From Flavobacteriaceae bacterium PS02337 (GTDB lineage: Bacteria; Bacteroidota; Bacteroidia; Flavobacteriales; Flavobacteriaceae), in the NCBI GenBank assembly GCA_029959285.1, contig JASCOE010000008.1:186001-250000 (forward strand): a stretch of 64,000 bases of DNA. The letters run 5' to 3'. Within the stretch, counting starts at the first letter, position 1. Each line of letters starts with the position of its first letter. Under the pieces are notes generated by a model. It saw only the letters and a program-made list of their open reading frames with translations. It was not told the origin of the DNA and did no database searches. Made by a program: the position numbers and the translations under genes. This document shows positions 1,204 to 61,700 of this stretch, piece after piece.

Positions 1204-1962
1204 ATGAAAATAGTTATATCGCCAGCGAAGTCTTTAAATTTTGAAAAAGAATTACCAACATCTCAATATACAGAACCTTCATTTTTGAAAGAAGCGAGAG
1301 TGGTTCACAAAGTAGTTAAACAAAAAAAGCCATCTGAATTATCAGAATTAATGTCGATTTCAGACAAACTAGCCGATCTAAATTGGAAAAGAAATCAGGA
1401 TTGGAAAACACCTTTTACACCAGAAAATGCACGCCCAGCGGTTTATACTTTTGATGGAGATGTTTATACAGGTTTAGATGCCTATTCAATTCCGTTAGAA
1501 AAGCTAGAAGCATTGCAAGATAAATTAAGAATCTTATCTGGACTTTATGGTCTTTTGAAGCCATTAGATTTAATGCAAGCTTATCGTTTAGAAATGGGAA
1601 CGAAAATGCCAGTTGCAGAATCTAAAAACTTACACGAGTTTTGGAAACCAACCGTTACTAAAGCATTAAATAAAGAATTGAAAAAAGGTGAGTTATTTGT
1701 GAATTTAGCGAGTAACGAATACTTTTCTGCTGTCGATGTTAAAGCGTTGAAAGTTCCAGTTATTACTCCAGATTTTAAAGATTACAAAGACGGAAAATTA
1801 AAAATGATTAGTTTCTTCGCAAAAAAGGCGAGGGGAATGATGGTTCGTTATATTATCGATACAAATGCAGAAACTATTGATGATTTAAAAGGTTTCAATT
1901 ATGACGGATATCAATTTGATGCGAATCTTTCTAAAGGAAATCATTTAGTTTTTACAAGGTAA
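1204..1962 (+). CDS. yaaA: peroxide stress protein YaaA (UPF0246/DUF328)
   Basis: 252 residues, full length for the family. It starts MKIVISPAKSLNFE, the conserved YaaA N-terminus, and has the family C-terminal stretch around ITPDFKDYKDGKLK and FFAKKARGMMVRYI. In Escherichia coli YaaA lowers free iron during hydrogen peroxide stress; that role is carried over by homology. The gene stands alone between repeat-filled gaps. The ATG at 1204 is the only sensible start and sits just after a -7-like element. Confidence 0.93.
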   Translation: MKIVISPAKSLNFEKELPTSQYTEPSFLKEARVVHKVVKQKKPSELSELMSISDKLADLNWKRNQDWKTPFTPENARPAVYTFDGDVYTGLDAYSIPLEKLEALQDKLRILSGLYGLLKPLDLMQAYRLEMGTKMPVAESKNLHEFWKPTVTKALNKELKKGELFVNLASNEYFSAVDVKALKVPVITPDFKDYKDGKLKMISFFAKKARGMMVRYIIDTNAETIDDLKGFNYDGYQFDANLSKGNHLVFTR

Positions 1963-46612: not shown

Positions 46613-48322
46613 TTATTTAGGAATTACAATTTTAGCTTTAAATCCGTTGTTGGGCGATGTGTTAAATTCTATAGTTCCTTTAACAGCCTGAATTCGGTTT
46701 TCCATATTGAGCAAACCATTTTTTACAACTTCTGTTTTTTCACACCCAATTCCGTTATCTGTATAGTTTATGAACAGTGTTTTTTGATCACTTTCAAATT
46801 TTATTACGACAAGACTGGCTTTGCTGTGTTTCTTCATATTGACCATTAATTCTTGTAAAACGCGGCTAATGGTGATTTTTTTTACATCATTAATCGTTTC
46901 CCAATCAACATTTTCAAAATTAGTGGCAATAATATTTCTTTCGTTAGTATTGTACACAGAAAGCATTTCTTTTATGTTTTTAGTAAAATTTTCACCAATA
47001 TCAATCTTATTGTTTTCTTTTGAAATTCCTCGTACACGTCCGTAAATATCATCTAATTTTTGAAGCAGGTTCTCTCTCGTGTTTTCTGTCGATAAAGGTT
47101 GAGATTCGGTAAAAGCAATTACATTAAAGACATCATTTGCCAATTCGTCATGAATTTTTTTAGCAATTCGGGTTTCGGTGTCGTACGAACTTTTAAATTC
47201 GATGGCCTTGTTTTTATTTTTATAATAGCGAATTAAAATGGCAATTAAAATCACTAAAAAGACAAATACAATTGCAAATACAATACGCATATAACTAGCT
47301 TTTTGCAACGATAATTGATTTTCTGCTTTTTCTAAACGAAGCTTTTCGTTTTCATCTTTTTCTTTTTTCGAGTCGTATTTAATTTTAGCGAATTTATTTT
47401 TAAAGTTATTTCTAACCTTTATAATGCTGTCGTTTAAACTAAAATATTTTTGTACATATTTGCTGTCTTGTGCACTATGATTATTCGAAATTAAAATTTG
47501 CAATGCTTCTAATCTTTCATCAACGCTATTTAGTTTTGTAGCAGCATTATAAGCCGCAAGAGCATTGTCATCAGATTTTTGAAGGTCTTTTTTAGAATAA
47601 TAATCGCCAAGATGTAAATAGCTTTCGATGCTTCCGTAAGTATTCTTAATTTCGTTTCTTAATTTAAGACTTTCATTCATTAAATAGAAACCTTTTTCAT
47701 CAGAACCATTTTTAAAATAAGCATAACCTAGATTATCTTGTAATGTTGCTTTAAAACTTGCTTTAGATTCATTATCTAAAAATTTTTGTGACAAGATTGA
47801 TTCTAGAAGGTCAATTGCTTTTTCATATTTTTTTTGCTGTATATATACAGCTGCAATATTGCTTCTAGGTCCCTGTTTCTCTTCAAGATCTTTTGAGTAT
47901 TTAATCGATTCATTATAGTAAAAAATAGCATCGTTGTAAAGTGAAAGTTCTTTGTCAGCGATTCCTAATATATTATTTATGCAGCCGATATGATTTATGT
48001 TATTTTTAGCATATGGTAACGCATCTGTCACTGTTTCTTTACTACCATAATAATCTCCATTAATTTGTTGAATAGATGCCATTTGTATAAGGACATACGA
48101 GATATTGGCACTGTCTTTTACCGTTTCAAAAAGTAGTTTAGATTTGTTAAACTCGTAAAATGCGGTGTTTAGGTTTTGTTTTTGATAGTTTTCATCTGCT
48201 TTATCTCTTAAAACACCAGCTTCTTTACTTACAGCTTCTGTATTAGAATTACTAGTCTTTTTTTCTTTGCAGGAAAAGAGAGAAAGTATGATAATAAAAT
48301 AAAAAAACGGGGACCGCAACAT
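46613..48322 (-). CDS. TPR-containing sensor histidine kinase (cassette copy 1)
   Basis: 569 residues. It starts MLRSPFFYFIIILSLFSCKE, a lipobox-like signal. TPR repeats span about 40-280 and should lie in the periplasm; a linker coiled coil (about 310-340) leads to a membrane helix (about 344-365). The kinase is of the HisKA_3 type: H-box IHDELAND with His near 391, N-box ELMVNMKKHSKAS, G-box DNGIGCEK. Closely similar to the kinase at 54894-56594 along its whole length. Unlike that copy it has no response regulator gene beside it. Confidence 0.88.
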   Translation of the reverse strand: MLRSPFFYFIIILSLFSCKEKKTSNSNTEAVSKEAGVLRDKADENYQKQNLNTAFYEFNKSKLLFETVKDSANISYVLIQMASIQQINGDYYGSKETVTDALPYAKNNINHIGCINNILGIADKELSLYNDAIFYYNESIKYSKDLEEKQGPRSNIAAVYIQQKKYEKAIDLLESILSQKFLDNESKASFKATLQDNLGYAYFKNGSDEKGFYLMNESLKLRNEIKNTYGSIESYLHLGDYYSKKDLQKSDDNALAAYNAATKLNSVDERLEALQILISNNHSAQDSKYVQKYFSLNDSIIKVRNNFKNKFAKIKYDSKKEKDENEKLRLEKAENQLSLQKASYMRIVFAIVFVFLVILIAILIRYYKNKNKAIEFKSSYDTETRIAKKIHDELANDVFNVIAFTESQPLSTENTRENLLQKLDDIYGRVRGISKENNKIDIGENFTKNIKEMLSVYNTNERNIIATNFENVDWETINDVKKITISRVLQELMVNMKKHSKASLVVIKFESDQKTLFINYTDNGIGCEKTEVVKNGLLNMENRIQAVKGTIEFNTSPNNGFKAKIVIPK

Positions 48323-48340
48323 ATAAGTTAACTTTCCCCG
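48308..48340 (-). promoter_or_regulatory. hairpin over the kinase start codon (copy 1)
   Basis: On the minus strand CGGGGA (48340-48335) can pair with TCCCCG (48313-48308), enclosing the kinase ATG, and is followed by TTTTTTTATTTT. The 21-nt loop is large. It could be a weak terminator or hide the start. The copy-2 kinase has the same element at 56580-56611. Confidence 0.5.
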
Positions 48341-48384
48341 AAAATAGTAATTAATTAGATACTAAAAACATATTTTTAGCATAC

Positions 48385-48588
48385 TTATGGATTTACTGGC
48401 GGATTTACCGGTGGTTTTACTGGCGGATTTGTCGTATCACCAGGACCTTCAGCAGGAGCATCACCAGCTTTTAAGTGATCGAATGGTTTTTCGATTTTCT
48501 TACTTGTTTGAGTCTCATACTCATCAGGAGTACAAGAAAATATAGTGAACAATAACGCAATAGCGATAAAAAGTATAAATTTTTTCAT
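48385..48588 (-). CDS. small lipoprotein with proline-rich tail (cassette copy 1)
   Basis: 67 residues. Lipobox cysteine at about 19 (FSCTPDEYET), a short charged linker, then GPGDTTNPPVKPPVNPPVNP at the C-terminus. The mature chain is under 50 residues. Paralog of the 61-residue gene at 56647-56832: both share MKKF, SCT-DE-ET and a Pro-rich end, and both are directly upstream of a TPR kinase gene. I suggest a periplasmic or surface partner or ligand of that kinase; no experiment is known to me. Confidence 0.75.
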   Translation of the reverse strand: MKKFILFIAIALLFTIFSCTPDEYETQTSKKIEKPFDHLKAGDAPAEGPGDTTNPPVKPPVNPPVNP

Positions 48589-48672
48589 TTTGATTTAATT
48601 TAGAAATTAGACATAGGTATTGCTGTCCGGAATTATCCAGAGCCTATTGGCGGCGATACCAAATTGATTTTA

Positions 48673-48745
48673 GGGAAGTAAGGCGTGTAGAACTGTAAGA
48701 CGTAATTTATACTTCCCGAATAAACTCGGTCTTACTGTTTTCCAC
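48673..48745 (-). other. conserved structured upstream element (copy 1)
   Basis: The arms 48685-48701 (GTGTAGAACTGTAAGAC) and 48729-48745 (GTCTTACTGTTTTCCAC) are complementary at 15 of 17 positions, counting one G-T pair. Interleaved with them, GGGAAGT (48673-48679) pairs with ACTTCCC (48711-48717). Both pairings cannot form as simple nested stems, so a pseudoknot or switch is possible. Copy 2 lies at 56898-56976. Confidence 0.65.
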
Positions 48746-48766
48746 AATGTTATTTAGAACTAGTTT

Positions 48767-48796
48767 TATGTTTGTGTTTTAGTCTGCAGACAAAAC
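48767..48796. promoter_or_regulatory. CTGCAG palindrome with plus-strand -7 element (copy 1)
   Basis: TTTAGTCTGCAGACAAAA (48778-48795) is a palindrome with one mismatched pair. It directly follows TATGTTTG (48767-48774), a TAnnTTTG element facing the plus strand. Copy 2 has the same arrangement at 56996-57024. Confidence 0.6.
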
Positions 48797-48852
48797 TTGA
48801 ACTAATTTCTGATGCAAAGAAAAGGCGCTTTGAAGCCATTGTAGCCAAGGTA

Positions 48853-48895
48853 TTCCCAGAATTCCCGCATTTCCCCGAGATTCCCGAAAATTCCT
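48853..48895. promoter_or_regulatory. phased TTCCC array (copy 1)
   Basis: TTCC(C) starts at 48853, 48862, 48871, 48881 and 48891, spacing 9, 9, 10 and 10 bp. First unit is 66 bp from the centre of the CTGCAG palindrome. Likely a series of protein-binding sites on one face of the helix. Confidence 0.65.
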
Positions 48896-48899
48896 TACA

Positions 48900-49680
48900 A
48901 CAAAATAAATTGCAAGATGAATTTGATCAATTACAAGTTTTATTTGTTTATAAAACCAATCTGACCTCTATTTATAATAGATGCAAAAAGTGCTAAAAAA
49001 GTTGTTTTGAGTATTAAAAAAGATAAAAATGTAGAATTAAAAAAATCAATAAATTGAGATTAGTGTTAGAACAAGTCAAATTGATAGAAAACGAGAAATA
49101 AATCATAGAATTACTTTTGGTTTTTGAAAAATTAAAATGAAGAGTCGAAAAAGGTTTCCCGAACAGGAAATCTTTTTTAAGTGGAGCGTCTATACTTTCT
49201 AAAAAGAGATTTAGAAATATAATGAAAGAAAAAGAATTACGGTCGCAATTGAAGCTGACGCGTTGCAATTTTCTGCTTGCTTGTATTTTGTGCAGAAAAA
49301 GAATTGGGTAGAATAATTTCTAACTGAAATTGAAAAGCATTTTTAAAAATAAAATGCATGAAGAGATAAAAAGTGTAATTTTTTGAGAACGGATTCTGGC
49401 ATTTAAAAAGTTTGTTTTTCGGCATATATTTACTGTTATTTACACTATAAAGATAAGAAAAAATATCCGATAAACCTAATGAAAATCAATAAAATAAGTG
49501 GTTTTTTTATAAAAAAGTGCACTTTTTTTTCGTTGAATTTATTTGCTTTTTTTGAATGATTTTTGCGGACATAAAACTTGCTTTTTTGACAATCAAGTCG
49601 AAGTAAAAATTATTTATATTAATAAAAAACATTAAATTAGATTTTGATTTTCTAATAACAATTCGCTTAAAAAACTTCTT
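48900..49680. other. gene-poor stretch, possibly decayed sequence
   Basis: No convincing gene in either strand. Short plus-strand fragments (for example EADALQFSACLYF around 49250-49290) read like coding sequence but are cut by many stops. Could be remains of a gene once driven from the copy-1 divergent promoter. 49441-49680 is very AT-rich and probably holds the promoter of the next gene. Confidence 0.3.
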
Positions 49681-50043
49681 ATGAAAAAGATCCTGGTATT
49701 ATTAATTGTTTTATGCACTTTCGGCTGTAAAAAATATGTTGTTGCGTTTGAGCAGCCAACAAATATGAAATTGGATAAATTAAAATTGGAAGTTTTTCTG
49801 GACAAAGAGAAAGTTCAGGAAATCAACTTAAATGCAACAAATGAAATGCCAACGTATCAAACGGCAGAATTGTCTATATCTGATGATGGAAAACACCTGC
49901 TTCAAGTTAAAGCACAAGACACAACGTTTAGTTATGAGGTAAAATATCCCGAAGAAAAATATATTAGAGTGACAGCGCACTTAAAATCGAATGGAAAAAT
50001 CCATATCGGAATTACGAAACAAAATTATAAGTTTAGATCATAA
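49681..50043 (+). CDS. small lipoprotein of unknown function
   Basis: 120 residues. Lipobox FGC at about residue 16, then a beta-rich body (LDKLKLEVFLDKEKVQEINL, HLLQVKAQDTTFSYEVKYPE) of about 100 residues, possibly one Ig-like or transthyretin-like sheet. No named family. Flanked by repeats. Confidence 0.65.
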   Translation: MKKILVLLIVLCTFGCKKYVVAFEQPTNMKLDKLKLEVFLDKEKVQEINLNATNEMPTYQTAELSISDDGKHLLQVKAQDTTFSYEVKYPEEKYIRVTAHLKSNGKIHIGITKQNYKFRS

Positions 50044-50049
50044 TAAGTT

Positions 50050-50182
50050 ATCCAACCGCAAAGTTCGCAGGTTTTTTACTTATTTATTTAACCGCAAAGT
50101 TCGCAAAGATATATCGGAATATCTTTGCGAACTTTTTTTATGAATTTTGCTAAATAAAAAACTTAGCGTGCTTTGCGGTTAA
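50050..50182. repeat. intergenic inverted repeat (AACCGCAAAGTTCGCAAAG family)
   Basis: AACCGCAAAGTTCGC appears at 50055 and 50091 and is mirrored by GCTTTGCGGTT at 50172-50182. Inside is AAAGATAT/ATATCTTT with TGCGAACTTTTTTT, usable as a terminator. Units are 9 bp. Confidence 0.75.
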
Positions 50183-50188
50183 AATACT

Positions 50189-51541
50189 TTAAGATAAAAA
50201 ATCCTTAAACCATAATCCTGAATTCTTGATTGTTCTTTTCTGAGTTTCAAAATCAACGTGAATTAAGCCAAAACGTGCGTTATAACCTTCAGCCCATTCA
50301 AAGTTATCAGTCAAACTCCAAACAAAATAACCATCGACATTTAAACCATCATTTTTGGCCTTTAAAATTTGTTCTAAGTTATCCTGAATAAAGTGCGTTC
50401 TTTTGATATCGTGAACTTTTCCATTTGTTACAACATCTGGAAAAGCAGCTCCGTTTTCGGTAATAATGATCTTTTTGATATTGTCATATTCATTAAATTT
50501 CTTTAGAATATGATACATCGCTGCCGGATAAACTTCCCAGCCCATATCGGTCGAAATTACATTTCGCTTTTCGGCACTTACCAATTCGGCACCAATATAC
50601 GGAATCAGCATTGCTGATTTTACAACTTCTCTGGTGTAACATTGCAGGCCTATAAAATCAAAATCGAAAGCCAGATTATCTAAATCGTCAGGCGCAATAT
50701 AATTATTCAGTTTTTTTAAAACAGGAAGATCTTTCTGTGGATAACCCAATCCTAAAATGGGCTCGATAAAAGTTCTGTTTAATAAAGTATCGACACGTTT
50801 TGCGGCTTCAACATCTTTTGCGCTTTCAGTTGCAGGTTCTATGTGCGTACAAGAAAAAGTAGTTCCGATATTAGCATTTTGAACTTTATTTCGAATTATT
50901 TTGGCGCCAGCTGCAGTTGCCAAAGTAACGTGATGCATGGCTTTTAAATAATTGGTAATTCCTTTTCTGCCAGGAGCATGAATTCCTAAAAAGTAACCTG
51001 CACCAGTAAAAACAGAAGGCTCGTTAATTACCATCCAGTTTTTTACACGATCACCAAAATTTTGCACACACACTTCAACATATTCCGAAAACCAAGCAAC
51101 CGATTCTCGGTTTGTCCAGCCTCCTTTTACTTCGAGAGCGTGTGGTAAATCCCAATGATATAGCGTAATCCAAGGTTGGATTCCAGATGCAAGAAGCGAA
51201 TCTATAATTTTGTTGTAATAATCAATTCCAGCCTGATTTATCGGATGAATTCCAGTTGGCATAATGCGCGGCCAGCTTATAGAAAATCTAAAATTCGGAA
51301 TATTTAATTCGTTAATTAGATTAATATCATCCTGATAATTATTGTAGAAATCACAGGCAGTTAGGGCATGATGTCCGTTTTTTATTTTTCCTTTTTGAGA
51401 AGTAAAAACGTCCCAAATAGAAGAACCTTTTCCATCAGAATCATGTGCACCTTCAATTTGGAAAGCGGCAGTTGAGACACCCCATAAGAAATCTTCACCA
51501 AATTGGTTTTTGTTCAAAAATGAGCTTTCAATTTTATTCAT
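50189..51541 (-). CDS. glycoside hydrolase family 1 beta-glucosidase
   Basis: 450 residues. Starts with the GH1 mark FLWGVSTAAFQIEGAHDSDGKG. Acid/base Glu in WMVINEPSVF (about 165) and nucleophile Glu in IITENGAAFPD (about 355). No signal peptide, so it probably cleaves imported disaccharides or aryl glucosides in the cytoplasm. No transporter or SusCD pair adjoins it. Confidence 0.95.
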   Translation of the reverse strand: MNKIESSFLNKNQFGEDFLWGVSTAAFQIEGAHDSDGKGSSIWDVFTSQKGKIKNGHHALTACDFYNNYQDDINLINELNIPNFRFSISWPRIMPTGIHPINQAGIDYYNKIIDSLLASGIQPWITLYHWDLPHALEVKGGWTNRESVAWFSEYVEVCVQNFGDRVKNWMVINEPSVFTGAGYFLGIHAPGRKGITNYLKAMHHVTLATAAGAKIIRNKVQNANIGTTFSCTHIEPATESAKDVEAAKRVDTLLNRTFIEPILGLGYPQKDLPVLKKLNNYIAPDDLDNLAFDFDFIGLQCYTREVVKSAMLIPYIGAELVSAEKRNVISTDMGWEVYPAAMYHILKKFNEYDNIKKIIITENGAAFPDVVTNGKVHDIKRTHFIQDNLEQILKAKNDGLNVDGYFVWSLTDNFEWAEGYNARFGLIHVDFETQKRTIKNSGLWFKDFLS

Positions 51542-51752
51542 TCAATCTGTACCTTCCTTTATTTAAAACCATTTATTAGTGTAGGAAAGAAGATTGCATT
51601 GCTCTTAAGAAAAGCCATTCTTTGAATGATACGAGAAAATTTAGATTAAATAATTTCATAACGATTAGTTTTATTTCAAATTACCGAAACTAATGTGAAA
51701 TTATTGTAAACTCATTATTATCAAATGATTAAATAAATCGATAAAGAGAAAA

Positions 51753-51962
51753 TTAATCTTCCCAACCGCAAAGTGACAGGCCTAAACCTTGAGCTTTTTT
51801 GAGTGAAGTTTTTACAATTTCGTGTTTACAAGAACTCAATCCGCGACAGGTTTCTTTATAATGATATTTTTTAGCGCCAGTAGAACCGCAAATAAAAACA
51901 TTGGTTTCAATTGGTGAAAAAGAAGTTGAAAAAACGAAAATTAAAAGTAAAATATATTTCAT
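51753..51962 (-). CDS. small secreted Cys-rich protein with KYH-C motif
   Basis: 69 residues. Signal peptide of about 18, mature part begins near ETNVFICGSTGAKKYHYKET, followed by CRGLSSCKHEIV and GLSLCGWED. KYH followed by spaced Cys residues resembles the small Ada-like metal-binding module found at the ends of bacterial nucleases, here on its own. Function unknown. 3 bp after the next gene upstream. Confidence 0.65.
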   Translation of the reverse strand: MKYILLLIFVFSTSFSPIETNVFICGSTGAKKYHYKETCRGLSSCKHEIVKTSLKKAQGLGLSLCGWED

Positions 51963-51965
51963 GGT

Positions 51966-52379
51966 TTATTTGACAATTAATTGATATTCGTTTCCACTTT
52001 TATCAAGAGCTTTAAGTTTTCCATTCGAAACCCATTCGGTATTAATATCGATTTCACCAAGACTATCGTTTTTCAACATTCCTGCGCCATATTTTCCTTC
52101 TGTATTAATGTTTCCAAAAACCGAATCGCCTGTCATATTTATCCCTTTTACATCATAATTGTATTTATAATGTCCAGAATTTCCAGTTCTATATTCGTAT
52201 TTATAATTGGTATTGACATGATAGGTTTTGGCTTCTTCGGGCGTAATGGTTTTGCGATCATCTGCCGTAATTACCGTTTTGTAAAATGAATTTACTTGCG
52301 GCAGTGGAGGCGGAGCGTCGGCATTTTTGCAGGAAAATAAGAAGAAGAATAAAAGTAAGGTTAAGTAGTTTTTTTGCAT
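51966..52379 (-). CDS. lipoprotein of unknown function
   Basis: 137 residues. Lipobox FSC near 17, then ADAPPPLPQ and a beta-rich region with repeated YKYEYRTGNSGHYKYNYDVKG. Likely envelope located. Probably forms a two-gene unit with the small Cys-rich gene downstream. Confidence 0.65.
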   Translation of the reverse strand: MQKNYLTLLLFFFLFSCKNADAPPPLPQVNSFYKTVITADDRKTITPEEAKTYHVNTNYKYEYRTGNSGHYKYNYDVKGINMTGDSVFGNINTEGKYGAGMLKNDSLGEIDINTEWVSNGKLKALDKSGNEYQLIVK

Positions 52380-52452
52380 AGGCGTTGGTTTGGGTTAATT
52401 GTTTTTTGGTTGCAATAAATCTAATTAGAATTACTTTTTCTAAAATGAGTAG

Positions 52453-52758
52453 TTATACTGGATTTAATGCAGAGATTGAATTAATAACTCGTTCAGCTAT
52501 TTCTTCCCTTTCAACTATTATTTGAGAGGGAAGAAGTATTTGAATTTTGTCATTTATTGGATTTTTAAAAACTTGAAAATTACCTCGACAGTTATGATAT
52601 CGAAATTGAAATGCTTTTAATCCTTTTATAAAACCTTCCTTTTGAGTTGTTTCAAACACATAATTCGAGCAGGATTTTTTAAAAATGCATTTTCTCCGAT
52701 TGGATTGAGGAATTAAAAGCCAGTACATTTTAATAACAAGAAGTATTAAATATCTCAT
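52453..52758 (-). CDS. YidD-like membrane protein insertion efficiency factor
   Basis: 101 residues. MYWLLIPQSNRRKCIFKKSCSNYVFETTQKEGFIKGLKAFQFRYHNCRG follows the YidD pattern (C-x-x-x-x-SCS-Y, then helix and R-x-x-C), but the usual Pro-Thr-Cys-Ser and final CNP motifs are altered, so it is a divergent member. Overlaps the end of the upstream gene by 4 bp (ATGA). Confidence 0.7.
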   Translation of the reverse strand: MRYLILLVIKMYWLLIPQSNRRKCIFKKSCSNYVFETTQKEGFIKGLKAFQFRYHNCRGNFQVFKNPINDKIQILLPSQIIVEREEIAERVINSISALNPV

Positions 52759-52988
52759 TTTTTCTGAAAAACTACCATTTGATTATTTGTTGTATAACCT
52801 GGGCGAGCTCCAAGTCCAAAACATCCAGTTTCAGGATGAACAAATGTTGATACGCTTTCTAAACGAACATATTCCCAGCCTTGATTTGAAAAGTTTTTTA
52901 TTAAACTTTCAAGTTGCTCTGCAACATGATTGGTTGTTCCTTTTTTTGGATCGATTGAAGCTATAAATGGCACGACTTTGTATTCCAT
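52755..52988 (-). CDS. small DUF4177-like protein
   Basis: 77 residues. MEYKVVPFIASI and LESLIKNFSNQGWEYVRLESV match the layout of DUF4177-type proteins (YKVV, then GWE). No signal peptide. Function unknown. Translationally coupled to the YidD-like gene. Confidence 0.65.
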   Translation of the reverse strand: MEYKVVPFIASIDPKKGTTNHVAEQLESLIKNFSNQGWEYVRLESVSTFVHPETGCFGLGARPGYTTNNQMVVFQKK

Positions 52989-53021
52989 AATATTTATTTG
53001 TTTGTTTGTTTAGATTTGTTT

Positions 53022-54077
53022 TTATTCCGTTTCGTAAAGTGCAACAGTTTCTAGTAATTCTTTTTCATATTGATAAATGTCATCTATAGAAGACATTGGT
53101 AGTTTTACTTCATTTTTATTATCATTAAAAAGACTGATATATTTTTTGCTCCCATTTAAATGAAGTCTTGTTAATGGTTTTCGGTTATTGTCGTCTAATA
53201 AAATTCCGAAGTATGATTGTGTGTCGCGATACACGACTCTGTTTGTCGGTAATTTGCGACGTAAAATGGCAAGAACAATTCTGTAACCGTCAAGTTCTTC
53301 TTCTGTAGTTACGATTTTGCTTTCATCTTCCACTACAACTATTTCTTCATTTTGTTGTTTAATAGTTTCTTTTGTAAGCGCAGCATTTAATCTATCATTG
53401 ATTTTATCATTGATAAATTGACTAACCGATTTCTGAACTAAATCTTTAAATTCATCAACTACTTTTTCGGTTAATCTCCCAGTATAAATTTTGCTGGCAA
53501 ATAATTTTGTAAAATCACTTGAAGGACTTTCTAATTCTGTATTGATAAGTTTTTTTATTTCCTTAATATATTTTAATGAACTAGCATTGTTTACAATATT
53601 ATTTACATCAAAATTGGCTTTATGGAATTTGGCAATTTCACTTATTGTATTTTCTTTTAGATTGCTAATATCAAATTCTAAAAATGGTTTTTCATCCATT
53701 TTATTAGTATCATCTAAATCGGTAAAAAATTGATAATGAATACCATTTGTTAAAAGTGCAAATCGAGTTTTTGTAACATGGAAATAACGAAACAATTGAG
53801 AATTGTGTACAGTAAGTTTTTCTTTCCAGCTTTTACATTCTACAATTATGATTGGTTCTCCGTTTTGAAAAATGGCGTAATCTACTTTTTCACCTTTTTT
53901 CAAACCAAGATCTGCTGTAAATTCTGGAACTACTTCTAAAGGATTAAAAGCATCATAACCTAAAATATGAATGAACGGTAACACAAAAGCATGTTTAGTG
54001 GATTCTTCTGTTTCAATTTTACTTTTTAACTGATTTATTTTATCAGATAGTGATTTAAGTTGAATGTTAATTTCCAT
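53022..54077 (-). CDS. solitary HsdR N-terminal-like nuclease domain protein
   Basis: 351 residues from the ATG at 54077 (MEINIQLKSLSDKINQLKS); an upstream start is unlikely. The PD-(D/E)XK site is D66 in GEKVDYAIF and E80/K82 in IIIVECKSW, as in the type I restriction HSDR_N domain. The middle is helical (about 130-260), and the C-terminal 90 residues (about 262-351: YRIVLAILRRKLPTNRVVYRDTQS) form a separate small domain. No HsdM or HsdS is near, so it is not a normal type I subunit. May be a stand-alone nuclease or defence-related protein. Confidence 0.75.
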   Translation of the reverse strand: MEINIQLKSLSDKINQLKSKIETEESTKHAFVLPFIHILGYDAFNPLEVVPEFTADLGLKKGEKVDYAIFQNGEPIIIVECKSWKEKLTVHNSQLFRYFHVTKTRFALLTNGIHYQFFTDLDDTNKMDEKPFLEFDISNLKENTISEIAKFHKANFDVNNIVNNASSLKYIKEIKKLINTELESPSSDFTKLFASKIYTGRLTEKVVDEFKDLVQKSVSQFINDKINDRLNAALTKETIKQQNEEIVVVEDESKIVTTEEELDGYRIVLAILRRKLPTNRVVYRDTQSYFGILLDDNNRKPLTRLHLNGSKKYISLFNDNKNEVKLPMSSIDDIYQYEKELLETVALYETE

Positions 54078-54218
54078 TGGATTTAGTTTTGATTTATATT
54101 TCAAAAGTAAAACCAAACAAAACCAATGTTTTACGGAAATCCATAATACATAAATATTAAATTCAAGAAATAAAAAAAGCCCCCGAAGGAGCTAAAGAAA
54201 TATAAGTTGAAAAGGAGA

Positions 54219-54887
54219 TTAAATAATTCCCATGTCTTTTGTAATAGAAACCAAATGAATGGTATTATTGGCTTTGAAAAAGTCTTTTAGTTTTGACAAT
54301 CTTTTTTCCATAGCACTTTTGCTATTGGCTTTGACTTCTGAGTTTTTGAAAATTTCTACAATTTCATCTTGTGAAATTCCGTCCGATAAATATTTTAGAA
54401 TTTTAATATCCACATCATCAATTTCAAAATTGTTTTTTTCCTGCAATGCAGAAGCAACTTCAGGCGAAATAAATTTTTGATCGGAGGTCGAAATTAAATG
54501 AATCGCTTTTTTTAATTCTTCGATGCTGTTCAGACTTTTTAAAACAAAACCATCGATTTCGGCATTTTCAAAAAGCGATTTAATTCTAAAACTTTTGTCT
54601 TCAACAGAATATGCAATTATTTTAATATTGGGCTGAAGTTCACGAACTTTTTGAACGAGTTCGTCACCGCTTGCAATTTTTACTTCACGATGATCTGTTT
54701 TAAACGAAAGATCACTAATTAATAAATCGTAAGGCTCGTTTTGATGAATCGCGGCGCGTATCTTTAGAAATGCATCATCACAAAATTTCGAATGTTGAAA
54801 ATCGACAATATTTAAATCTTTCAAAACTTGCTGAATTCCTAAATTCATGGCATCGATATCTTCAGCTATTATTACTTTTTTAAACAT
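54219..54887 (-). CDS. NarL/LuxR-like response regulator (cassette copy 2)
   Basis: 222 residues. Receiver domain with phospho-acceptor D59 (LLISDLSF), acidic E9/D10 and K near 111 (VLKSL). C-terminal HTH region about 150-215 (VDIKILKYLSDGISQDEIVEIF) is LuxR-like but divergent. Six bp after the TPR kinase gene, so its cognate partner is very probably that HisKA_3-type kinase. Confidence 0.88.
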   Translation of the reverse strand: MFKKVIIAEDIDAMNLGIQQVLKDLNIVDFQHSKFCDDAFLKIRAAIHQNEPYDLLISDLSFKTDHREVKIASGDELVQKVRELQPNIKIIAYSVEDKSFRIKSLFENAEIDGFVLKSLNSIEELKKAIHLISTSDQKFISPEVASALQEKNNFEIDDVDIKILKYLSDGISQDEIVEIFKNSEVKANSKSAMEKRLSKLKDFFKANNTIHLVSITKDMGII

Positions 54888-54893
54888 AGGCTT

Positions 54894-56594
54894 TTATTTA
54901 GGCATTGTTATTTTTACTTTAAAACCTTTATCAGGTTCCGTTTCAAAAGTAATAGTTCCTTTACTAGACAAAATACGGTTTTCCATATTTAGCAAACCAT
55001 TTTTTATAATTTGTGATTTTTCGCAACCTTTTCCGTCATCACTATAATCAATAAGTATCAAATTTGAATTATTATTAAACTTTAAAACCACAATAGAAGC
55101 ATTGCTATGTTTTTTCATGTTAACCATTAATTCCTGAAGAACTCTATGAATAATAACTTTCTTTTCGTCTTCAATATCATTCCAACTAATCTTTTCAATA
55201 TTTGTAATAATTACATTCGTATTAGCGGTATTATAAGTGGAAAGCATTTCTTTTAAGTTATAAGAGAAATTTATACCCGTGTCGACATTACTATTTTCTC
55301 GTGAAATGCCTCTTACGCGAGAATAAATATGATTGAGTTTTTGTAATAAAGGTTCTTTACTGTTTTCTGTTGTTAGAGATTGTGTCTGAGTAAAAGTAAT
55401 GGCATGAAAAACGTCATTTGCCAGTTCGTCGTGTATATTTTTAGCAATTCTCGTTTCCGTATTATAGGCAGTTTTAATTTCTACTAAACGAGTTTTGTGT
55501 TTGTAACGTTTTCTTAGATAAAGACCCAGAGATACAATAGTAATAACAATAACGATTATAGCAGCATATAAAACGACTTTATCTTTTTCTGCTTCTTTAA
55601 TTGCCACTAAATCTTCAGCTTTTTCTAAACGAAGTTTCTGGTTCTCGTCTTTTTCTTTTTTCGAATCGTATTTTATTTTCGCGAATTTGTTTTTGAAGTT
55701 GTTGCGAATATTAGTTATACTGTCATTTATGGAAATATATTTTTTTGAATATTGAGTTCCAGATCCGTTAGAAATTAAAACGGCTAAAGATTTTAAACGT
55801 TCATCAACACTGTTGAGGTTAGTTGCAATGTTGTATGCTTTTTGAGCATATTCATTGGATTTATTTATATTGATAGAAGTATAATATTCAGATAAATGAA
55901 GGTAACTAGCGATGCTGGAATATAAATCTTGAGATTGATTTTTAATTTCTAAACCTTCATTCATTAAAGAAAGTCCTTTTTTGTTTGAACCCATTTTGAA
56001 ATAAGCAAAACCAAGATTGTCTAAAGCTCTGCCTTTACTTTTCTCAGAAATTTGCTTTTCATTTAAAATAGATTCAAGAATTTGAATTGCCTTGTCATAT
56101 TTTTTCTGTTCAGTATAAATAACAGCGATATTATTTAAAGGTGATATTTTAGAGATGTTATTGTCTGCGTCTTTAATTGCTTCATTGTAATAATAAATAG
56201 CATCATTATAAAGTAGAAGTTCTTTATCAGCAATTCCAAAAAAATTATTGATTGAAACGGAATAAATATCTTTCTTTTTAAGATAAGGAAGTGCTTCTGT
56301 CAATGTTTCTTTGCTACCATAATAATCATCGTTAATTTGCTGTATTGAAGCCATTTGAATGAGATTGTAAACAAGATTTACACTATCTCTTAAAATTTCA
56401 AATGCTATTTTTGATTTATTAAAATTGTAGAAAGCGCTATTGTAGTTTTTATTTTTAAAATCTTCAACACCTTGATCTCTTATTTTGTATATCTTTTCTT
56501 TGTCAATTTCGACTTTGTTATTTTCTATTGTTTCTTTCTTACAAGAAAAGCAGAAAAGTAGAATTAGAAAATAAAAAAACGGGGATCGTAGCAT
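54894..56594 (-). CDS. TPR-containing sensor histidine kinase (cassette copy 2)
   Basis: 566 residues. Same plan as the copy at 46613-48322: MLRSPFFYF and lipobox-like FSCKK at the start, TPR repeats about 35-280, linker coiled coil, membrane helix about 340-362, then HisKA_3 kinase (IHDELAND, His near 388; ELMVNMKKHSNAS; DDGKGCEK; NGLLNMENRI). The TPR half is expected in the periplasm. Followed by its response regulator; preceded by its small lipoprotein. Confidence 0.88.
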   Translation of the reverse strand: MLRSPFFYFLILLFCFSCKKETIENNKVEIDKEKIYKIRDQGVEDFKNKNYNSAFYNFNKSKIAFEILRDSVNLVYNLIQMASIQQINDDYYGSKETLTEALPYLKKKDIYSVSINNFFGIADKELLLYNDAIYYYNEAIKDADNNISKISPLNNIAVIYTEQKKYDKAIQILESILNEKQISEKSKGRALDNLGFAYFKMGSNKKGLSLMNEGLEIKNQSQDLYSSIASYLHLSEYYTSININKSNEYAQKAYNIATNLNSVDERLKSLAVLISNGSGTQYSKKYISINDSITNIRNNFKNKFAKIKYDSKKEKDENQKLRLEKAEDLVAIKEAEKDKVVLYAAIIVIVITIVSLGLYLRKRYKHKTRLVEIKTAYNTETRIAKNIHDELANDVFHAITFTQTQSLTTENSKEPLLQKLNHIYSRVRGISRENSNVDTGINFSYNLKEMLSTYNTANTNVIITNIEKISWNDIEDEKKVIIHRVLQELMVNMKKHSNASIVVLKFNNNSNLILIDYSDDGKGCEKSQIIKNGLLNMENRILSSKGTITFETEPDKGFKVKITMPK

Positions 56595-56611
56595 AATAGT
56601 TACTTTCCCCG
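56580..56611 (-). promoter_or_regulatory. hairpin over the kinase start codon (copy 2)
   Basis: On the minus strand CGGGGA (56611-56606) can pair with TCCCCG (56585-56580) across the ATG, followed by TTTTTTTATTTT. Leu and Arg codons between the arms differ from copy 1 (CTA CGA versus TTG CGG), but the TCC CCG arm and the T-run are identical. Confidence 0.5.
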
Positions 56612-56646
56612 AAAATACTAATTTATTACAAATTAGAAATTTTAAT

Positions 56647-56832
56647 TTATGGTTTTTTTGGAGGCACCGGTACTACAACAGGATCATCTTCAGGACCATC
56701 GCTAGCTTGTGTATTAGTAATATCTTTTTTTACCTCAGTTTTGCCATCGGCTGTTTCGAATTCATCAGCAGTGCAAGAAAATAATGTAGTTGTCAATAGG
56801 GTAAACGCTCCCCATAAAAAAAACTTTTTCAT
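56647..56832 (-). CDS. small lipoprotein with proline-rich tail (cassette copy 2)
   Basis: 61 residues. Lipobox Cys near 20 (FSCTADEFET), a linker KTEVKKDITNTQASDGPEDD, and the C-terminus PVVVPVPPKKP. Paralog of the gene at 48385-48588. 52 bp upstream of the copy-2 kinase and presumably co-transcribed. Confidence 0.75.
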   Translation of the reverse strand: MKKFFLWGAFTLLTTTLFSCTADEFETADGKTEVKKDITNTQASDGPEDDPVVVPVPPKKP

Positions 56833-56897
56833 AATTGAAAATTTTTAAGATTGGATTAAAGGCGTTCAGAACTTTTCTGAGTTATGCCATTTTGGGT

Positions 56898-56976
56898 GGG
56901 AAGTGAAGTGCGTAGAACAGTAAGATTTTCATCTATACTTCCCGGAATAAAATCCGCCTTACGGTTTTCCGCACTT
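56898..56976 (-). other. conserved structured upstream element (copy 2)
   Basis: Arms 56906-56924 (AAGTGCGTAGAACAGTAAG) and 56958-56976 (CTTACGGTTTTCCGCACTT) are complementary at 17 of 19 positions, counting one G-T pair. GGGAAGT (56898-56904) and ACTTCCC (56937-56943) pair across them. The two mismatch positions are the same as in copy 1, and one T-A pair there is C-G here. Confidence 0.65.
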
Positions 56977-57024
56977 TGTAATTGAACTAGTTTTGTACAT
57001 TTGTTTTTGACCTGCAGATCAAAA
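56975..57024. promoter_or_regulatory. plus-strand promoter and CTGCAG palindrome (copy 2)
   Basis: TTTG (56975-56978), 17 bp, TACATTTG (56996-57003) is a good -33/-7 pair facing the gene at 57199. TTTTGACCTGCAGATCAAAA (57005-57024) is a 20-bp palindrome with one mismatched pair, placed at the expected transcription start. Confidence 0.6.
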
Positions 57025-57045
57025 CATTAACTAATTTTGTTAAGG

Positions 57046-57053
57046 CAAAGTTA
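57046..57053 (-). promoter_or_regulatory. possible minus-strand -7 element of the copy-2 cassette
   Basis: On the minus strand TAACTTTG fits TAnnTTTG. The phased AAGT array starts 29 bp upstream of it, where a -33 box would be. Copy 1 has a weaker counterpart (TTTCTTTG, 48822-48815), 31 bp from its array. Confidence 0.45.
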
Positions 57054-57081
57054 TGTAGGGTTTAGAGCTGTATTGTCCAGA

Positions 57082-57188
57082 AAGTCAGGAAAGTCTAATT
57101 TGTTTTTCTAAAGTCGAGATAAGTTCTAAGAAGTCATAAAAAGTCAGACAAAGTAGAATAAAGTACTTTAGAAAAAGTTTAAAAAAGT
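57082..57188. promoter_or_regulatory. phased AAGT array (copy 2)
   Basis: AAGT starts at 57082, 57091, 57111, 57121, 57131, 57141, 57151, 57161, 57175 and 57185. Six consecutive copies are exactly 10 bp apart; five of the ten read AAGTC. It lies between the cassette promoter and the plus-strand gene. Phased A-tracts here could also bend the DNA. Confidence 0.75.
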
Positions 57189-57198
57189 TCAATTGCCT

Positions 57199-58149
57199 AT
57201 GTCAAAAATTACTTTTGAAGATTATAAAAAAGCTATTAAGGCTAAATATGAAGAGGAAATAGAAGGTGTATATTCAAATAATTTAAGTTCACCAACAGCA
57301 GCGAATCTTAGAAATTTGTGCATCAAAAGATTTACATCAAATAATAGTAAAGATGACTTATTTACTTTTGAATCTTTTTTTGATTTTCCATTTGATGGGG
57401 ATAAGAAAAATTTGTTTGGAGATGATGAACTGAATAAGTTAGAAGCAGTTAAGAGATTTTTTTTAGGTAAAACAGAAAAACCAGCAGAAGATACTATTCA
57501 GTTAGCTGCAATACTTGTTGACCTTAAGCCAAGACCTTTTAAAGAGTTTAGAAAACAAATTGATGAAGAGGATGTAGATTTGATAAAGGATTTAAGAAAT
57601 ACTGGTTTTTCAAAAAAAAATATTTCTTCTGATAATGTGAATGAAGAAACGCAAATAGAAAGTTTTTTCGATTCAGAAATAACCTCGGATGAGGAAGAAG
57701 ATTCAAAAAGAAATGAAGAAGAAAAAGAAAAAGAAAAAGGAGGAGCAGAAGAAATCAAAATTGAAAATCCAAAACATCCAATATTAAGATACTTTGCAAT
57801 AACAGGAATTCTGGCTGGATTATGTTTAATTATTTATTTGGCTCTACCTCAAAAAGAATGTATGCAATGGTCTAATGATCATTATGAATTAGTGGATTGT
57901 GATGTCAAAATTGAAGGCATCGGAATGGTGAATCAGATAGAACTTTTAGATAAAAGTCTCTTCAATCTTAAAAAGGTAAATGTTTGTGATACAACAAAAT
58001 GTTTTGATAAAAATGGAGACGCTGTAATTTGGTACGCAAAAACTGAAAATGGTATCGATTTCTTTAATGGTCATGGAAGGCATCCTGAGAACAACAAGGC
58101 TTTAAGACCTATAACACAATATATCATTAATAAATATGTCAAAAAATAA
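57199..58149 (+). CDS. unknown single-pass membrane protein next to the cassette
   Basis: 316 residues from the ATG at 57199 (MSKITFEDYKKAIKAKYEEE). N-terminal cytoplasmic region of about 200 residues, acidic and Lys/Glu-rich toward its end (DEEEDSKRNEEEKEKEKGG), one membrane helix (about 205-223, YFAITGILAGLCLIIYLAL), then a 90-residue outer domain with four Cys (KECMQW, VDCD, VCDTTKCF). No family recognised. Transcribed away from copy 2 across the phased array. Confidence 0.65.
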   Translation: MSKITFEDYKKAIKAKYEEEIEGVYSNNLSSPTAANLRNLCIKRFTSNNSKDDLFTFESFFDFPFDGDKKNLFGDDELNKLEAVKRFFLGKTEKPAEDTIQLAAILVDLKPRPFKEFRKQIDEEDVDLIKDLRNTGFSKKNISSDNVNEETQIESFFDSEITSDEEEDSKRNEEEKEKEKGGAEEIKIENPKHPILRYFAITGILAGLCLIIYLALPQKECMQWSNDHYELVDCDVKIEGIGMVNQIELLDKSLFNLKKVNVCDTTKCFDKNGDAVIWYAKTENGIDFFNGHGRHPENNKALRPITQYIINKYVKK

Positions 58150-58262
58150 AGTTAAAATGCGATTTATGTAATAAAAACCTGAAATCATGGAATTTTCTGT
58201 AAGATTATACATTTAATTTAGCAGTATTAAAATTAATAAACAAATCAAACAAAAAATCTACC

Positions 58263-58676
58263 ATGAAAAGTAAAGCAATATTATTAGGATTATTAAGCAT
58301 CGGTTTTTTTGCAACATCTTGCAGCAGTGATGATAACAACGGAGAAACAATCGTTCCAATTCAAGGAAAATACAACCTTAGACAAACAGGATCAATTGTT
58401 GGTGGACAAGAAGTATTAATTGATGCAGTAGCAAACCAAGCAGGTTGCCCAGGAGATTACTTAGATCTAAGATTGAGTAATGCTGCGGTTTACGGAGATT
58501 ATAACGGTTCTGAATGTGCCTTAACTGAAACAACTGGAACGTACGTAAGATCTCATAACGATTTAACGCTAACTATTAATGGTGTTACTACAACTAGTGA
58601 TATCATGAATCTTACAAACAAAGAGTTGAAAATAAAAGACAAAGTATCTGGTGCTATTACAGTTTACAGTCGATAA
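58263..58676 (+). CDS. lipocalin-like lipoprotein
   Basis: 137 residues. Lipobox TSC at about 20, then SSDDNNGE and a body starting IQGKYNLRQTGSIVGGQEVL, with beta strands and two Cys (AGCPGD, SECAL) that could bridge. Resembles the small lipocalin-like lipoproteins of Bacteroidota. Function unknown. Confidence 0.7.
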   Translation: MKSKAILLGLLSIGFFATSCSSDDNNGETIVPIQGKYNLRQTGSIVGGQEVLIDAVANQAGCPGDYLDLRLSNAAVYGDYNGSECALTETTGTYVRSHNDLTLTINGVTTTSDIMNLTNKELKIKDKVSGAITVYSR

Positions 58677-58717
58677 GAAAAATTGTTTTGAGATAATTTC
58701 AATGTGCTTTGAAATTG

Positions 58718-58752
58718 AAAAACGGAAACACTTTAAAGTAGTTTCCGTTTTT
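58718..58752. terminator. bidirectional terminator
   Basis: AAAAACGGAAAC (58718-58729) pairs with GTTTCCGTTTTT (58741-58752) between convergent genes. Confidence 0.85.
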
Positions 58753-58775
58753 TTATGAATTTTTATAATTGAATT

Positions 58776-61700
58776 TTAGCTGACAGGAATATAGATATCG
58801 AAAGTTGCGCCTTCATTTTGTAAACCCGAAGCCGTTATAATTCCGTTATGGTTTTCTACAATCTTTTTTACAATTGCTAGTCCAATTCCAGTTCCGTTGT
58901 AGCGATCTCTTCCGTGTAAACGCTGAAAAACTTCGAATATTTTTTTGTTGTATTGAGGTTCAAAACCAATTCCGTTGTCTGAAACTTGAATGTGACAATA
59001 TTTTTTCGTCGGAATCAATTTTTCATTGTCTAAATCTTCTGCTACAGCAATTTCACTTTTAATTTTAATTACAACAGGAACATCAGGATTTGAGAATTTT
59101 AATGAATTGCTAATTAAATTGTATAATAACTGTTTGAACTGAAACGGAATAATATCAGCTTTTGATGTTTTTTCTACTTCAATAACAGCATTTTTTTGTT
59201 CTAATTCTTCGGTTAAATCCTCTTTTACTTCTTTTATAATTTGAGAAAGATCTGTTTTAACAAATACTCGTTCTTGAATATTAGTTCTAGAATACGCCAA
59301 TAAATCGTTAATCAAAGTCTGCATTCGTTGGGCTGCATTTTGCATTCTTCTAAATTTATCTTTTCCATTTTCAGATAAACTTTCAGATTCTTTATCCATA
59401 ATCTGCGAAGCAAAAGTCTGTATTTTTCGAAGCGGTTCCTGTAAATCATGACTAGAAATGTAAGCAAACGACTGAAGTTCTTTATTCATTTCTTCCAGTT
59501 CGTTATTTTTTTGCTCCAATTCTAAAGCATTCATTTTTAGTGTGTCATCGGCCTTTTTTCTTTCGGTCAGATCATGTGTAACTTTCGAGAAACCAATAAT
59601 TTCATCTTGTTTGTTATGAATTGCCGTAATTACCACATTTGCCCAGAAACGAGTTCCATCTTTTCGAGCGCGCCAGCCTTCATGAACCACCTTTCCGTTT
59701 TCTATTGCGAGTTGCAGAAGTTTTTCAGGAAGTTTGCTTTTCTGATCTTCTTTCGTATAAAAAATAGAAAAATATTTTCCGACAATTTCTTCCGCTTTAT
59801 AACCTTTTATTTTTTCGGCACCAGCATTCCAGTTTTCAATAATTCCGTGAGCGCTGAGGTATAAAATCGCATATTCCTGAACTTCTTCGACCATTAAATG
59901 ATAACGTTCTTCACTTTTTCGAAGCGATTCGTTCATCTGAATTAATTCTCTGGTTCTTGCTGTAACCTGTTGTTCTAGTTCGTGAGTAAAAGCCTTTTCA
60001 GTATGAATGTCGGTAAAAGCGCCAACCCATTTTATTATTTGATTATTCAAATCTAAAACGGGTTCGCCAATAACGGTATGCCATCTGTAAGTGCCATCTT
60101 TACGTCGCATTCTCACGTCGCATCGATACATTTCTCCAGTTGAAAGGGCGTGTTTCCAGATTTTTACATTTTCATCAAAATCATCAGGATGAATCATCGC
60201 TTCCCAAGAACCTTCAAGACCAGGTTCGATTCCGGTATATTCAAACCATTTTCCAGAAGTAAATAATGAATTTCCTTCGGCGTCTGTTTCCCAAATTAAT
60301 TGCGGAATACTTTCTGTTAGAGAGCGGAATCTTTTTTCACTTTCTTCAATTTTTTTTCTGGCTTCGACTTTTTCTGTAACATCAATCAGCGTCATTCTGA
60401 TTCCAGAAATCGAATTGTCGCTTTCGCGGAGCGGTGCAAATTCAAAATCAACATAAAATTGATTGCTCTGATTTTCATTTTCAATAAAAAGTAAAGATTC
60501 GGCTTCTGTATAAACTTCGCCAGATTCGTATACTTTTTTTAGCAATTTGCCATATTTCTGTTTTTGAAGTTCAGGAAATAATTTTAAAAGATTTTTTCCT
60601 TCAACTTCATTTTGCTGTTTTTTCCAAATATTATCCAAAAGCACAAAATTGGCCATTTCGATCACAAAATCATTTCCTCTCAAAATCGCAATCGGAACAG
60701 GTGAATAGACGATGAGGTTTCGTAATTTTTTTGCGCTATCTTCAATTTTTTGCTGATACTTTTTCTCTTCGGTAATATCTCTAATTGTTCCAATTAGTTT
60801 TTCAGGTTCATTGTTTTCATCATAAAAAACTTTTCCTTTCCCTTCAATCCAATGAATCGATTTATCTTTCCAAATTACACGAACTTCATAATTTAAAATA
60901 CCAGAATTTAATGCATCTTTAAAACCTTGGTTTCTCACATGCATATCGTCGGGGTGAAGATGTTGCAGCAAATCTTCATGAGTTAAAGAAACTTCTTCGG
61001 TATATCCGCCAACAATTTCGAGATATCTTTGCGAATAAATTGGAGCTCTGGTTTTTACATTCAATTCCCAAGTTCCTAATTCGCTGGCTTCTACAACAAT
61101 TTTAAGACGATCTTCATTAAGCTCAATTTTTTTTCTAGCTTCCACTTTATCCGTAACTTCAGTTACAGTAACCAAAATTCCAGAAATAGTTCCGTCTTCT
61201 TCTTTTAATGGATGATATAGAAAATCGAAATAAAAAATTTCAATTTTCCCATATCGGTTAATTGGAACAGGAACTTCATATCCATTGAAAGGAATTCCGG
61301 TTTTTAAAACACCGTCCAATAAAGCACTGACAGTTTCTTTAACTTCAGGAAGTGAGTCATAAAGTGGTCTTCCAACAAAACTCTTTTCTTCGCGAGCCAC
61401 AATTTTTAGATACGCTTCATTTGCCATTTCGACAACATATTCTGGCCCGCCCAGAATTGTAATTCCTACTGGAGCTTGTCGAACTGTATCTCGGAAACGT
61501 TTGTCACTTTCTTCGATTTTTTGTTTGGCTAAATATAAGTCTGTAATTTCTACGGCTGTATTCATAACGGCATAAACTTTACCGTTTAAATCGTACAAAG
61601 GTGTAAAGCTGTAATTGAAATAGAATGGCTGTAATACATTATCTTTTACAATATCAACGCGTGAGTTTCTGGAGTGAAAAGACTTTCCAGTTTCAAATAC

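Follow-up and report, generated by a model that had tools for sequence, protein, structure and literature searches.

Natural exchanges between species suggest that a phased decamer array in Flavobacterium is read by an adjoining putative membrane protein

The array of direct repeats described here lies between two divergently oriented gene sets in Flavobacterium and is a conserved, probably regulatory region. Its natural exchanges between species point to an adjoining, likely membrane-bound protein as its reader, via a putative DNA-binding domain that belongs to no known family. The genus was assigned from nine named relatives, all of which are Flavobacterium. The array is genuine and a phased array is conserved at its place; a regulatory role is likely. 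Judged from sequence comparisons, the array is probably read by the product of the gene that adjoins its far end, and not by the response regulator of the two-component system, which had been put forward in the original prediction. We consider it probable (approximately 0.63) that a membrane-anchored regulator, carrying a putative DNA-binding domain not described so far, uses the array as a multi-site operator to control its own gene as well as the cassette.

The window (the whole stretch of DNA that was analysed, 64,000 nucleotides) contains the decamer array at positions 57082–57188 of the plus strand. Ten AAGT direct repeats start at 57082, 57091, 57111, 57121, 57131, 57141, 57151, 57161, 57175, and 57185, and all ten originally listed positions were confirmed. 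The successive spacings are 9, 20, 10, 10, 10, 10, 10, 14, and 10 bp, with six repeats at exactly 10 bp between 57111 and 57161. The base following AAGT is C, T, or A. The six-fold run is the longest exact 4-mer run at any period from 7 to 25 bp across the 64-kb window. The claim that such a run is far from random held in 20,000 dinucleotide shuffles of the region 56833–57198, in which any 4-mer at period 10 was considered: runs of at least six occurred in none of them, runs of at least five once, and runs of at least four ten times. Nowhere in the 5.7-Mb genome but in the array of the window does AAGT occur four times in a row at exact 10-bp spacing (three overlapping matches; 0 matches for the reversed control of the pattern). 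A search of the genome for other sites of the AAGT reader (three AAAGT, at most two mismatches) yielded 97 matches versus 194 for the reversed control; there is therefore no excess, and hence no sign of a regulon, beyond the array of the window. Ending beside the −7-like box of the cassette promoter and being far from random, the stretch is probably a multi-site regulatory array, as had been predicted.

The array is situated between this −7-like box (minus strand) and the ATG at 57199. Units 57082 and 57091 are located about 29–38 bp upstream of the box, and no clear −33 element was seen around this distance, which would suit activation of the cassette. At the other end, ten bases separate the last unit (57185–57188) from the ATG; the start codon abutting the array end would suit autoregulation of the divergent gene. 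Units 2 and 3 are separated by an AT-rich gap (57095–57110), which all eight aligned AAGT-type loci share and which could possibly house the promoter of this gene.

The gene set on the minus strand is a lipoprotein–kinase–regulator cassette. Its promoter-like −7 box, TAACTTTG (57046–57053), fits the sequence TAnnTTTG, which we take to be the Bacteroidota −7 consensus, and a CTTTG box was found at the equivalent position in the other cassettes read. Between the box and the first gene lies a leader (56833–57045) with the arms GGGAAGT (56937–56943) and ACTTCCC (56898–56904). The first gene encodes a small lipoprotein-like peptide of 61 amino acids with a proline-rich C-terminus (56647–56832), and it is followed by the genes for a TPR sensor histidine kinase (566 amino acids, 54894–56594) and the response regulator (222 amino acids, 54219–54887). 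The divergent gene on the plus strand (57199–58149) encodes a protein of 316 amino acids, the proposed reader of the array. Its codons 1–118 (57199–57552) correspond to the N-domain, which shows covariation with the array and is replaced together with it. The paralogous copy-1 cassette of the window (46613–48588) lacks an AAGT array of the copy-2 type; in the equivalent position with respect to its promoter-like box, it carries an array with an unlike core, TTCC(C) (48853–48894, plus strand), whose units start at 48853, 48862, 48871, 48881, and 48891, in steps of 9–10 bp.

Of 300 genomes from the genus, 119 possess orthologues of the kinase (E ≤ 1e-110). From these, 60 regions were taken, mostly around the closer kinase matches, with others of like identity left out, and 65 cassettes including the two of the window were located. 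Four of them had no recognised −7-like box and were left out of the lag test. In the remaining 61, arrays with a period of 9–10 bp were found 5′ of the orthologous two-component cassettes: pooled over these loci, 4-mers recurred at lag 9 in 392 of 6,062 and at lag 10 in 308 of 6,002 comparisons, versus just 18–62 at lags 5–8 and 11–17, where the pool includes related loci and the result applies to the pool as a whole. Further peaks were present at lags 19–20, 28–30, and 38–40. The core differs between loci. Eight arrays have AAGT (ACTT towards the cassette), and the remaining arrays read have TCC-based cores (AGGAT, CGGAAT, or GGGAAT, read towards the cassette). Regarding the expected conservation beside orthologous cassettes, the phased array is found at the same place, but its AAGT core is kept in just 8 of 61 arrays. 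The usual helical repeat of DNA is about 10.5 bp per turn. The notion that all copies lie on one face of the helix holds roughly, but the period of 9–10 bp across the family is below this value and the units therefore drift around the helix.

In the alignment of the eight AAGT-type arrays, the long gaps are all whole 10-bp units. Compared with the window, five loci lack one decamer, one lacks two, and one lacks none; indels of 1–2 bases occur near the start codon. Nine of the ten units of the window are intact in at least six of the seven other loci, and the tenth in one of seven. The core columns are 89% identical (250/280) and the spacers 73% (341/469), but with the core frame shifted by one base the identity is still 0.86, so that the contrast between core and spacer is modest. 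Across the genus, the pattern of four AAGT at exact 10-bp spacing was detected in 12 of 121 genomes and its reversed control in five of 121. Six of the 12 represent the locus of the window (genomes G000, G006, G057, G079, G088, and G108), most of the others are seemingly simple tandem repeats, and in one (G076) the pattern precedes the apparent start of mraZ. About ten near-perfect AAGTCTAAG[AC] decamers stand directly before a reading frame in genome G009 (L009, approximately 1501–1534, minus strand); these are seemingly a simple tandem repeat, and the locus has no apparent relation to the array. For the copy-1 type, a genome-wide search for TTCCC arrays with up to three mismatches gave 22 matches versus five in the control. 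The best two were the copy-1 array of the window (one mismatch) and the stretch before an unlinked reader paralogue on contig C4 (two mismatches); two other matches with two mismatches fall within long reading frames. Several copy-1 arrays have no adjoining reader gene.

An adjacent reader gene was assigned by a motif rule in 47 of the 61 cassettes, and the 41 loci with a long reader and a regulator gene were used for a covariation test, in which array similarity was expressed as the pairwise similarity of 4-mer spectra. Array similarity followed the similarity of the N-domain (rho 0.51) and not that of the C-domain (0.07), the linker (−0.01), the response regulator (0.03), or the leader (−0.02). 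The partial correlation of array and N-domain, given regulator, leader, and C-domain, was 0.52 and was reached in 0 of 2,000 permutations, a test that ignores relatedness, so the weight rests on the contrast between the segments and not on the p-value. The linker, although situated beside the N-domain, tracks the regulator (0.34) and the leader (0.38), not the array. All 41 listed pairs with N-domains at least 75% and C-domains at most 65% identical had array similarities of 0.65–1.00 (overall median 0.52), and nine of ten pairs with C-domains at least 80% and N-domains at most 60% identical had array similarities of 0.23–0.46. The exception (L056/L060) combines N-domains of 42% identity with arrays of 0.76 similarity, both of the TCC type; subtypes of the N-domain therefore need not differ in their target. 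Sixteen positions carry residues that are present in at least seven of the eight AAGT-type readers and in at most three of the 33 others. Eight of these positions fall within residues 81–97, and Glu82, Lys85, and Arg86 occur in all eight AAGT-type readers. Because the AAGT-type readers are related, these residues may be lineage marks.

In one clean pair, flanks of high similarity enclose a single block, the array plus the N-domain, that has been replaced as a whole. The loci L066 (TCC type) and L079 (AAGT type) are 93–98% identical over approximately 370 bp on the leader side before the array, or 90% if all 494 bp are taken. Array and codons 1–118 are 58% and 59% identical, respectively, and the rest of the gene is 91% identical. 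On the left, the block begins shortly after the −7 box, and on the right it ends near codon 115. A second pair, L062/L064, has regulators of 99% (220/222), leader plus peptide of 97%, and C-domains of 90% identity, together with N-domains of 45% and arrays of 52% identity; here, the divergence extends into the linker. L054/L056 resemble this pair, with the divergence again reaching the linker. Among the first pairs compared, two had a conserved C-domain with a swapped N-domain and three had a diverged C-domain as well and are of little informative value. Variation of the C-terminal domain (about 57766–58149) among species does not follow that of the N-domain, and the C-terminal domains have a median pairwise identity of 0.46, as if this sensor part were also exchanged between species.

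A profile of the N-domain gave matches in 27 of 61 genomes from the genus. Of 249 genomes sampled from the whole family, 12 had a match, and ten of these 12 belong to other genera. Long homologues are mostly preceded by arrays: a significant 10-bp chain was present within 130 bp before the start in 57 of 66 at p ≤ 0.05 and in 48 of 66 at p ≤ 0.01. Short homologues had a significant chain before their own start in four of 23 cases (p ≤ 0.05), and among ten unlinked short readers, whose arrays are degenerate, one had a significant chain. For all 89 readers, the exact 4-mer chain test, which is strict for arrays with a 9/10-bp jitter, was significant in 28 cases at p ≤ 0.01 and 44 at p ≤ 0.05. 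A 3-mer chain test allowing one skip, devised after the outcome of the exact 4-mer test was known, gave 51 and 61, respectively. Ten loci were available from other genera of the Flavobacteriaceae, two of which were excluded for lack of a readable start; six of the eight readable loci have a significant chain, whose core contains TTC or TCC. In tblastn searches (E ≤ 1e-4), a relative of the TPR kinase was located in the examined flank of 31 of 40 reader loci, among them eight of the ten from other genera. Among the 61 genomes, all ten with a copy-1 kinase carry, at an unlinked site, a short reader with the motif PSR[GA]KLRD, and such a reader was seen in 0 of the other 51 (read by eye). This co-occurrence may be due to shared ancestry alone.

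Array and N-domain are physically adjacent, and their co-inheritance may partly reflect linkage. They could have been exchanged together merely as neighbours, the repeats being slippage-prone DNA with little function or being read by an unlinked protein. Slippage in tandem repeats gains and loses units and alone can yield the 10-bp indels, and the similar arrays beside unlike N-domains in L056/L060 would be in line with this. However, neither the leader, which is the other neighbour of the array, nor the linker beside the N-domain shows a corresponding tracking of the array. The better conservation of core columns than of spacers (0.89 versus 0.73) and the phased arrays before homologues in other genera (6/8) also speak against this reading, which we regard as unlikely.

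Kinase–regulator cassettes often autoregulate, and the array is located upstream of the cassette promoter. The response regulator (54219–54887) might thus bind the array in tandem and autoregulate the cassette, and ComA is reported to be a response regulator using direct repeats (PMC4797271). The original prediction had named the response regulator as a candidate reader, but the comparison of loci turned against it: regulators that are 99% (L062/L064) or 96% (L066/L079) identical stand beside arrays with differing cores, array and regulator are uncorrelated (rho 0.03, 41 loci), and most copy-1 cassettes have an array although no regulator gene was found directly downstream of the kinase. The response regulator is accordingly a rather improbable reader.

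The protein encoded by 57199–58149 consists of the N-domain, an acidic linker, a likely transmembrane helix (approximately residues 194–215), and a C-terminal domain, which is likely periplasmic. Members of the family share this plan: the N-domain (about 118 residues) is conserved, the linker and the C-terminal domain are variable, and a likely membrane helix separates the two. The hydrophobic helix and a conserved cysteine in the C-domain were recognised from the sequence and a full-length model of poor quality (pLDDT 39.4), too poor for a fold search. The best model of the N-domain is all-helical (pLDDT 68.7; four other models 38.5–58.8), and in a check for a ribbon–helix–helix fold, this moderate model displayed no N-terminal strand. 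Pfam gave no match for the protein and, at E ≤ 5 with ten family members, just one unrelated weak family. An N-terminal winged helix of the ToxR/CadC type was found neither by Pfam nor by a fold search of the moderate model, which had no fold matches at E ≤ 0.001; the PDB contained no sequence relatives of the N-domain. The reader protein also had no match in NCBIfam (E ≤ 0.1) or PADLOC (E ≤ 0.01). With no Pfam, PDB, or fold match for the N-domain, nothing independent points to DNA binding.

The last unit (57185–57188) ends close to the start codon (ATG 57199), and the transcription start of the divergent gene could fall upstream of most units. In that case, the repeats might act at the RNA level, within the 5′ untranslated region of this gene, for instance as repeated sites for an RNA-binding protein. 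This is very unlikely: two units are found between the gap and the cassette, copy-1 arrays exist though several have no reader gene directly after them, and a spacing close to one turn of the helix is what DNA sites would naturally have. It had been suggested that phased A-tracts may add curvature, and intrinsically curved DNA might stimulate the cassette promoter. T-runs follow the core in many units and 8 of 58 other long-reader flanks were more bent than their shuffles (p ≤ 0.05; wedge model), but none of the eight AAGT-type arrays was, and A-tract phasing was found in one of these eight and in none of the 58 others. Curvature was therefore set aside as highly improbable. Least credible is a run of MraZ boxes: the MraZ site, printed as (AAAGTGKN3)3 in PMC5282649, shares the period and the AAAGT start, and the genome possesses mraZ (Pfam MraZ) with AAAGTGG decamers in front, but AAGT is followed by C in 32, T in 27, A in 13, and G in 0 of 72 units at the eight loci, the TCC-type arrays at the equivalent place do not share the MraZ core, and the adjoining proteins have no MraZ match in Pfam.

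We thus favour the multi-site operator, which would be common to the two divergent transcription units. Each unit of about 10 bp, corresponding to about one helical turn, would accommodate one protomer (or dimer) of the N-domain, and several protomers would align head to tail along the array. The reader would be anchored in the inner membrane, as is likely from its helix, with the C-terminal domain outside, where a signal could alter how far the array is occupied. Binding to the units near the −7 box of the cassette (57082 and 57091) would control the lipoprotein–kinase–regulator cassette, and the units just 5′ of the ATG at 57199 would control the gene of the reader itself. N-domain protomers held at the membrane might in this way fill successive decamers and gate both divergent promoters. 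Direct binding, one protomer per unit, the membrane topology, the sign of regulation, and the signal are the parts of this mechanism that we infer. More tentatively, and with somewhat less than even odds, the N-domain may represent a new DNA-binding domain family on a membrane-spanning regulator that polymerises on decamers, with array and domain forming an exchangeable specificity cassette while the sensor domain and the two-component system are kept.

If array and domain are exchanged in this manner, the locus would, in different species, use DNA "addresses" that are insulated from one another. An operator and its reading domain are rarely seen changing together in one step. The natural swaps between highly similar flanks, with eight AAGT-type loci versus the TCC type at the same place, resemble such a one-step change, and the evolution of regulator–operator specificity would thus be directly testable with existing orthologues. 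Orthogonal operator–reader pairs for Bacteroidota may result. The locus furthermore hints at a DNA-binding domain beyond Pfam, NCBIfam, and the solved folds searched, and it links a likely membrane regulator to the lipoprotein–kinase–regulator cassette.

Several known systems resemble parts of this arrangement. The original prediction knew of no described regulator with decamer arrays, thereby overlooking MraZ, whose site in Mollicutes consists, like the array of the window, of decamer direct repeats starting with AAAGT (PMC5282649). The decamers precede the gene of the regulator itself in the same genome, as proposed for the reader of the window. At L148 (about 1501–1525), AAAGTGG decamers in a 10-bp phase are found before the mraZ of the genome, which looks like an ordinary MraZ operator. 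The printed MraZ site comprises three units with a GTG core, whereas arrays of the window type are longer and their cores vary by species; moreover, the proposed reader has no MraZ match, is likely membrane-anchored, and faces a two-component cassette. Omega (ParB) of plasmid pSM19035 binds parS, in which 7–10 consecutive short repeats overlap its own and other promoters, with one protein dimer per repeat (PMC9499535). The repeats of this plasmid system are contiguous, 7 bp long, and bound by a ribbon–helix–helix protein, in contrast to the 9–10-bp repeats, the domain modelled as helical and with no known fold, and the chromosomal-type contig in the present case. The membrane-bound one-component regulators ToxR/CadC (PMC5430869) are composed of an N-terminal DNA-binding domain inside, one membrane helix, and a sensor outside. 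The proposed reader would share this layout but differs in the lack of a winged-helix match in Pfam, in its long phased arrays, and in the exchange of N-domain and operator as a block. HsdC, a controller of mycoplasma restriction–modification, has the direct repeats (GTGTTAN5)2 in the promoter of its own operon, and the repeat type differs between species in a similar way (PMC5282649); in contrast to the present case, there are just two 11-bp repeats and a restriction–modification context. PMC10197871 was rejected as a precedent, as its direct repeats sit inside tolC. In searches for Flavobacterium decamer tandem repeats, direct repeats with regulators, and TPR kinases, covering mostly literature outside subscription papers, the locus was not found described.

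Further observations concern the cassettes themselves. The leader (56833–57045, minus strand) is strongly conserved across cassettes, and arms similar to GGGAAGT/ACTTCCC, 25–45 nt apart and nearly invariant, were found in 63 of 65 leaders. In 60 cassettes, a further helix (≥ 5 bp) is able to interleave with these arms, a number biased by the choice of the best helix per locus. The base-pairing potential suggests that the leader may form a pseudoknotted RNA element; Rfam gave no match at the gathering score for 48300–58800. Most copy-1 cassettes consist of array, leader, peptide, and kinase, and because no regulator gene was found directly downstream, the copy-1 kinase may signal to another regulator. 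At L052 (745–6739), three TPR histidine kinases in a row are followed by one response regulator; these kinases are related to the cassette of the window but lack the lipoprotein–leader arrangement. The small lipoprotein-like peptides (56647–56832 and 48385–48588 in the window) have a conserved signal region and a variable proline-rich tail. They precede 63 of 65 kinases of the cassette type and are possible ligands or partners of the kinase.
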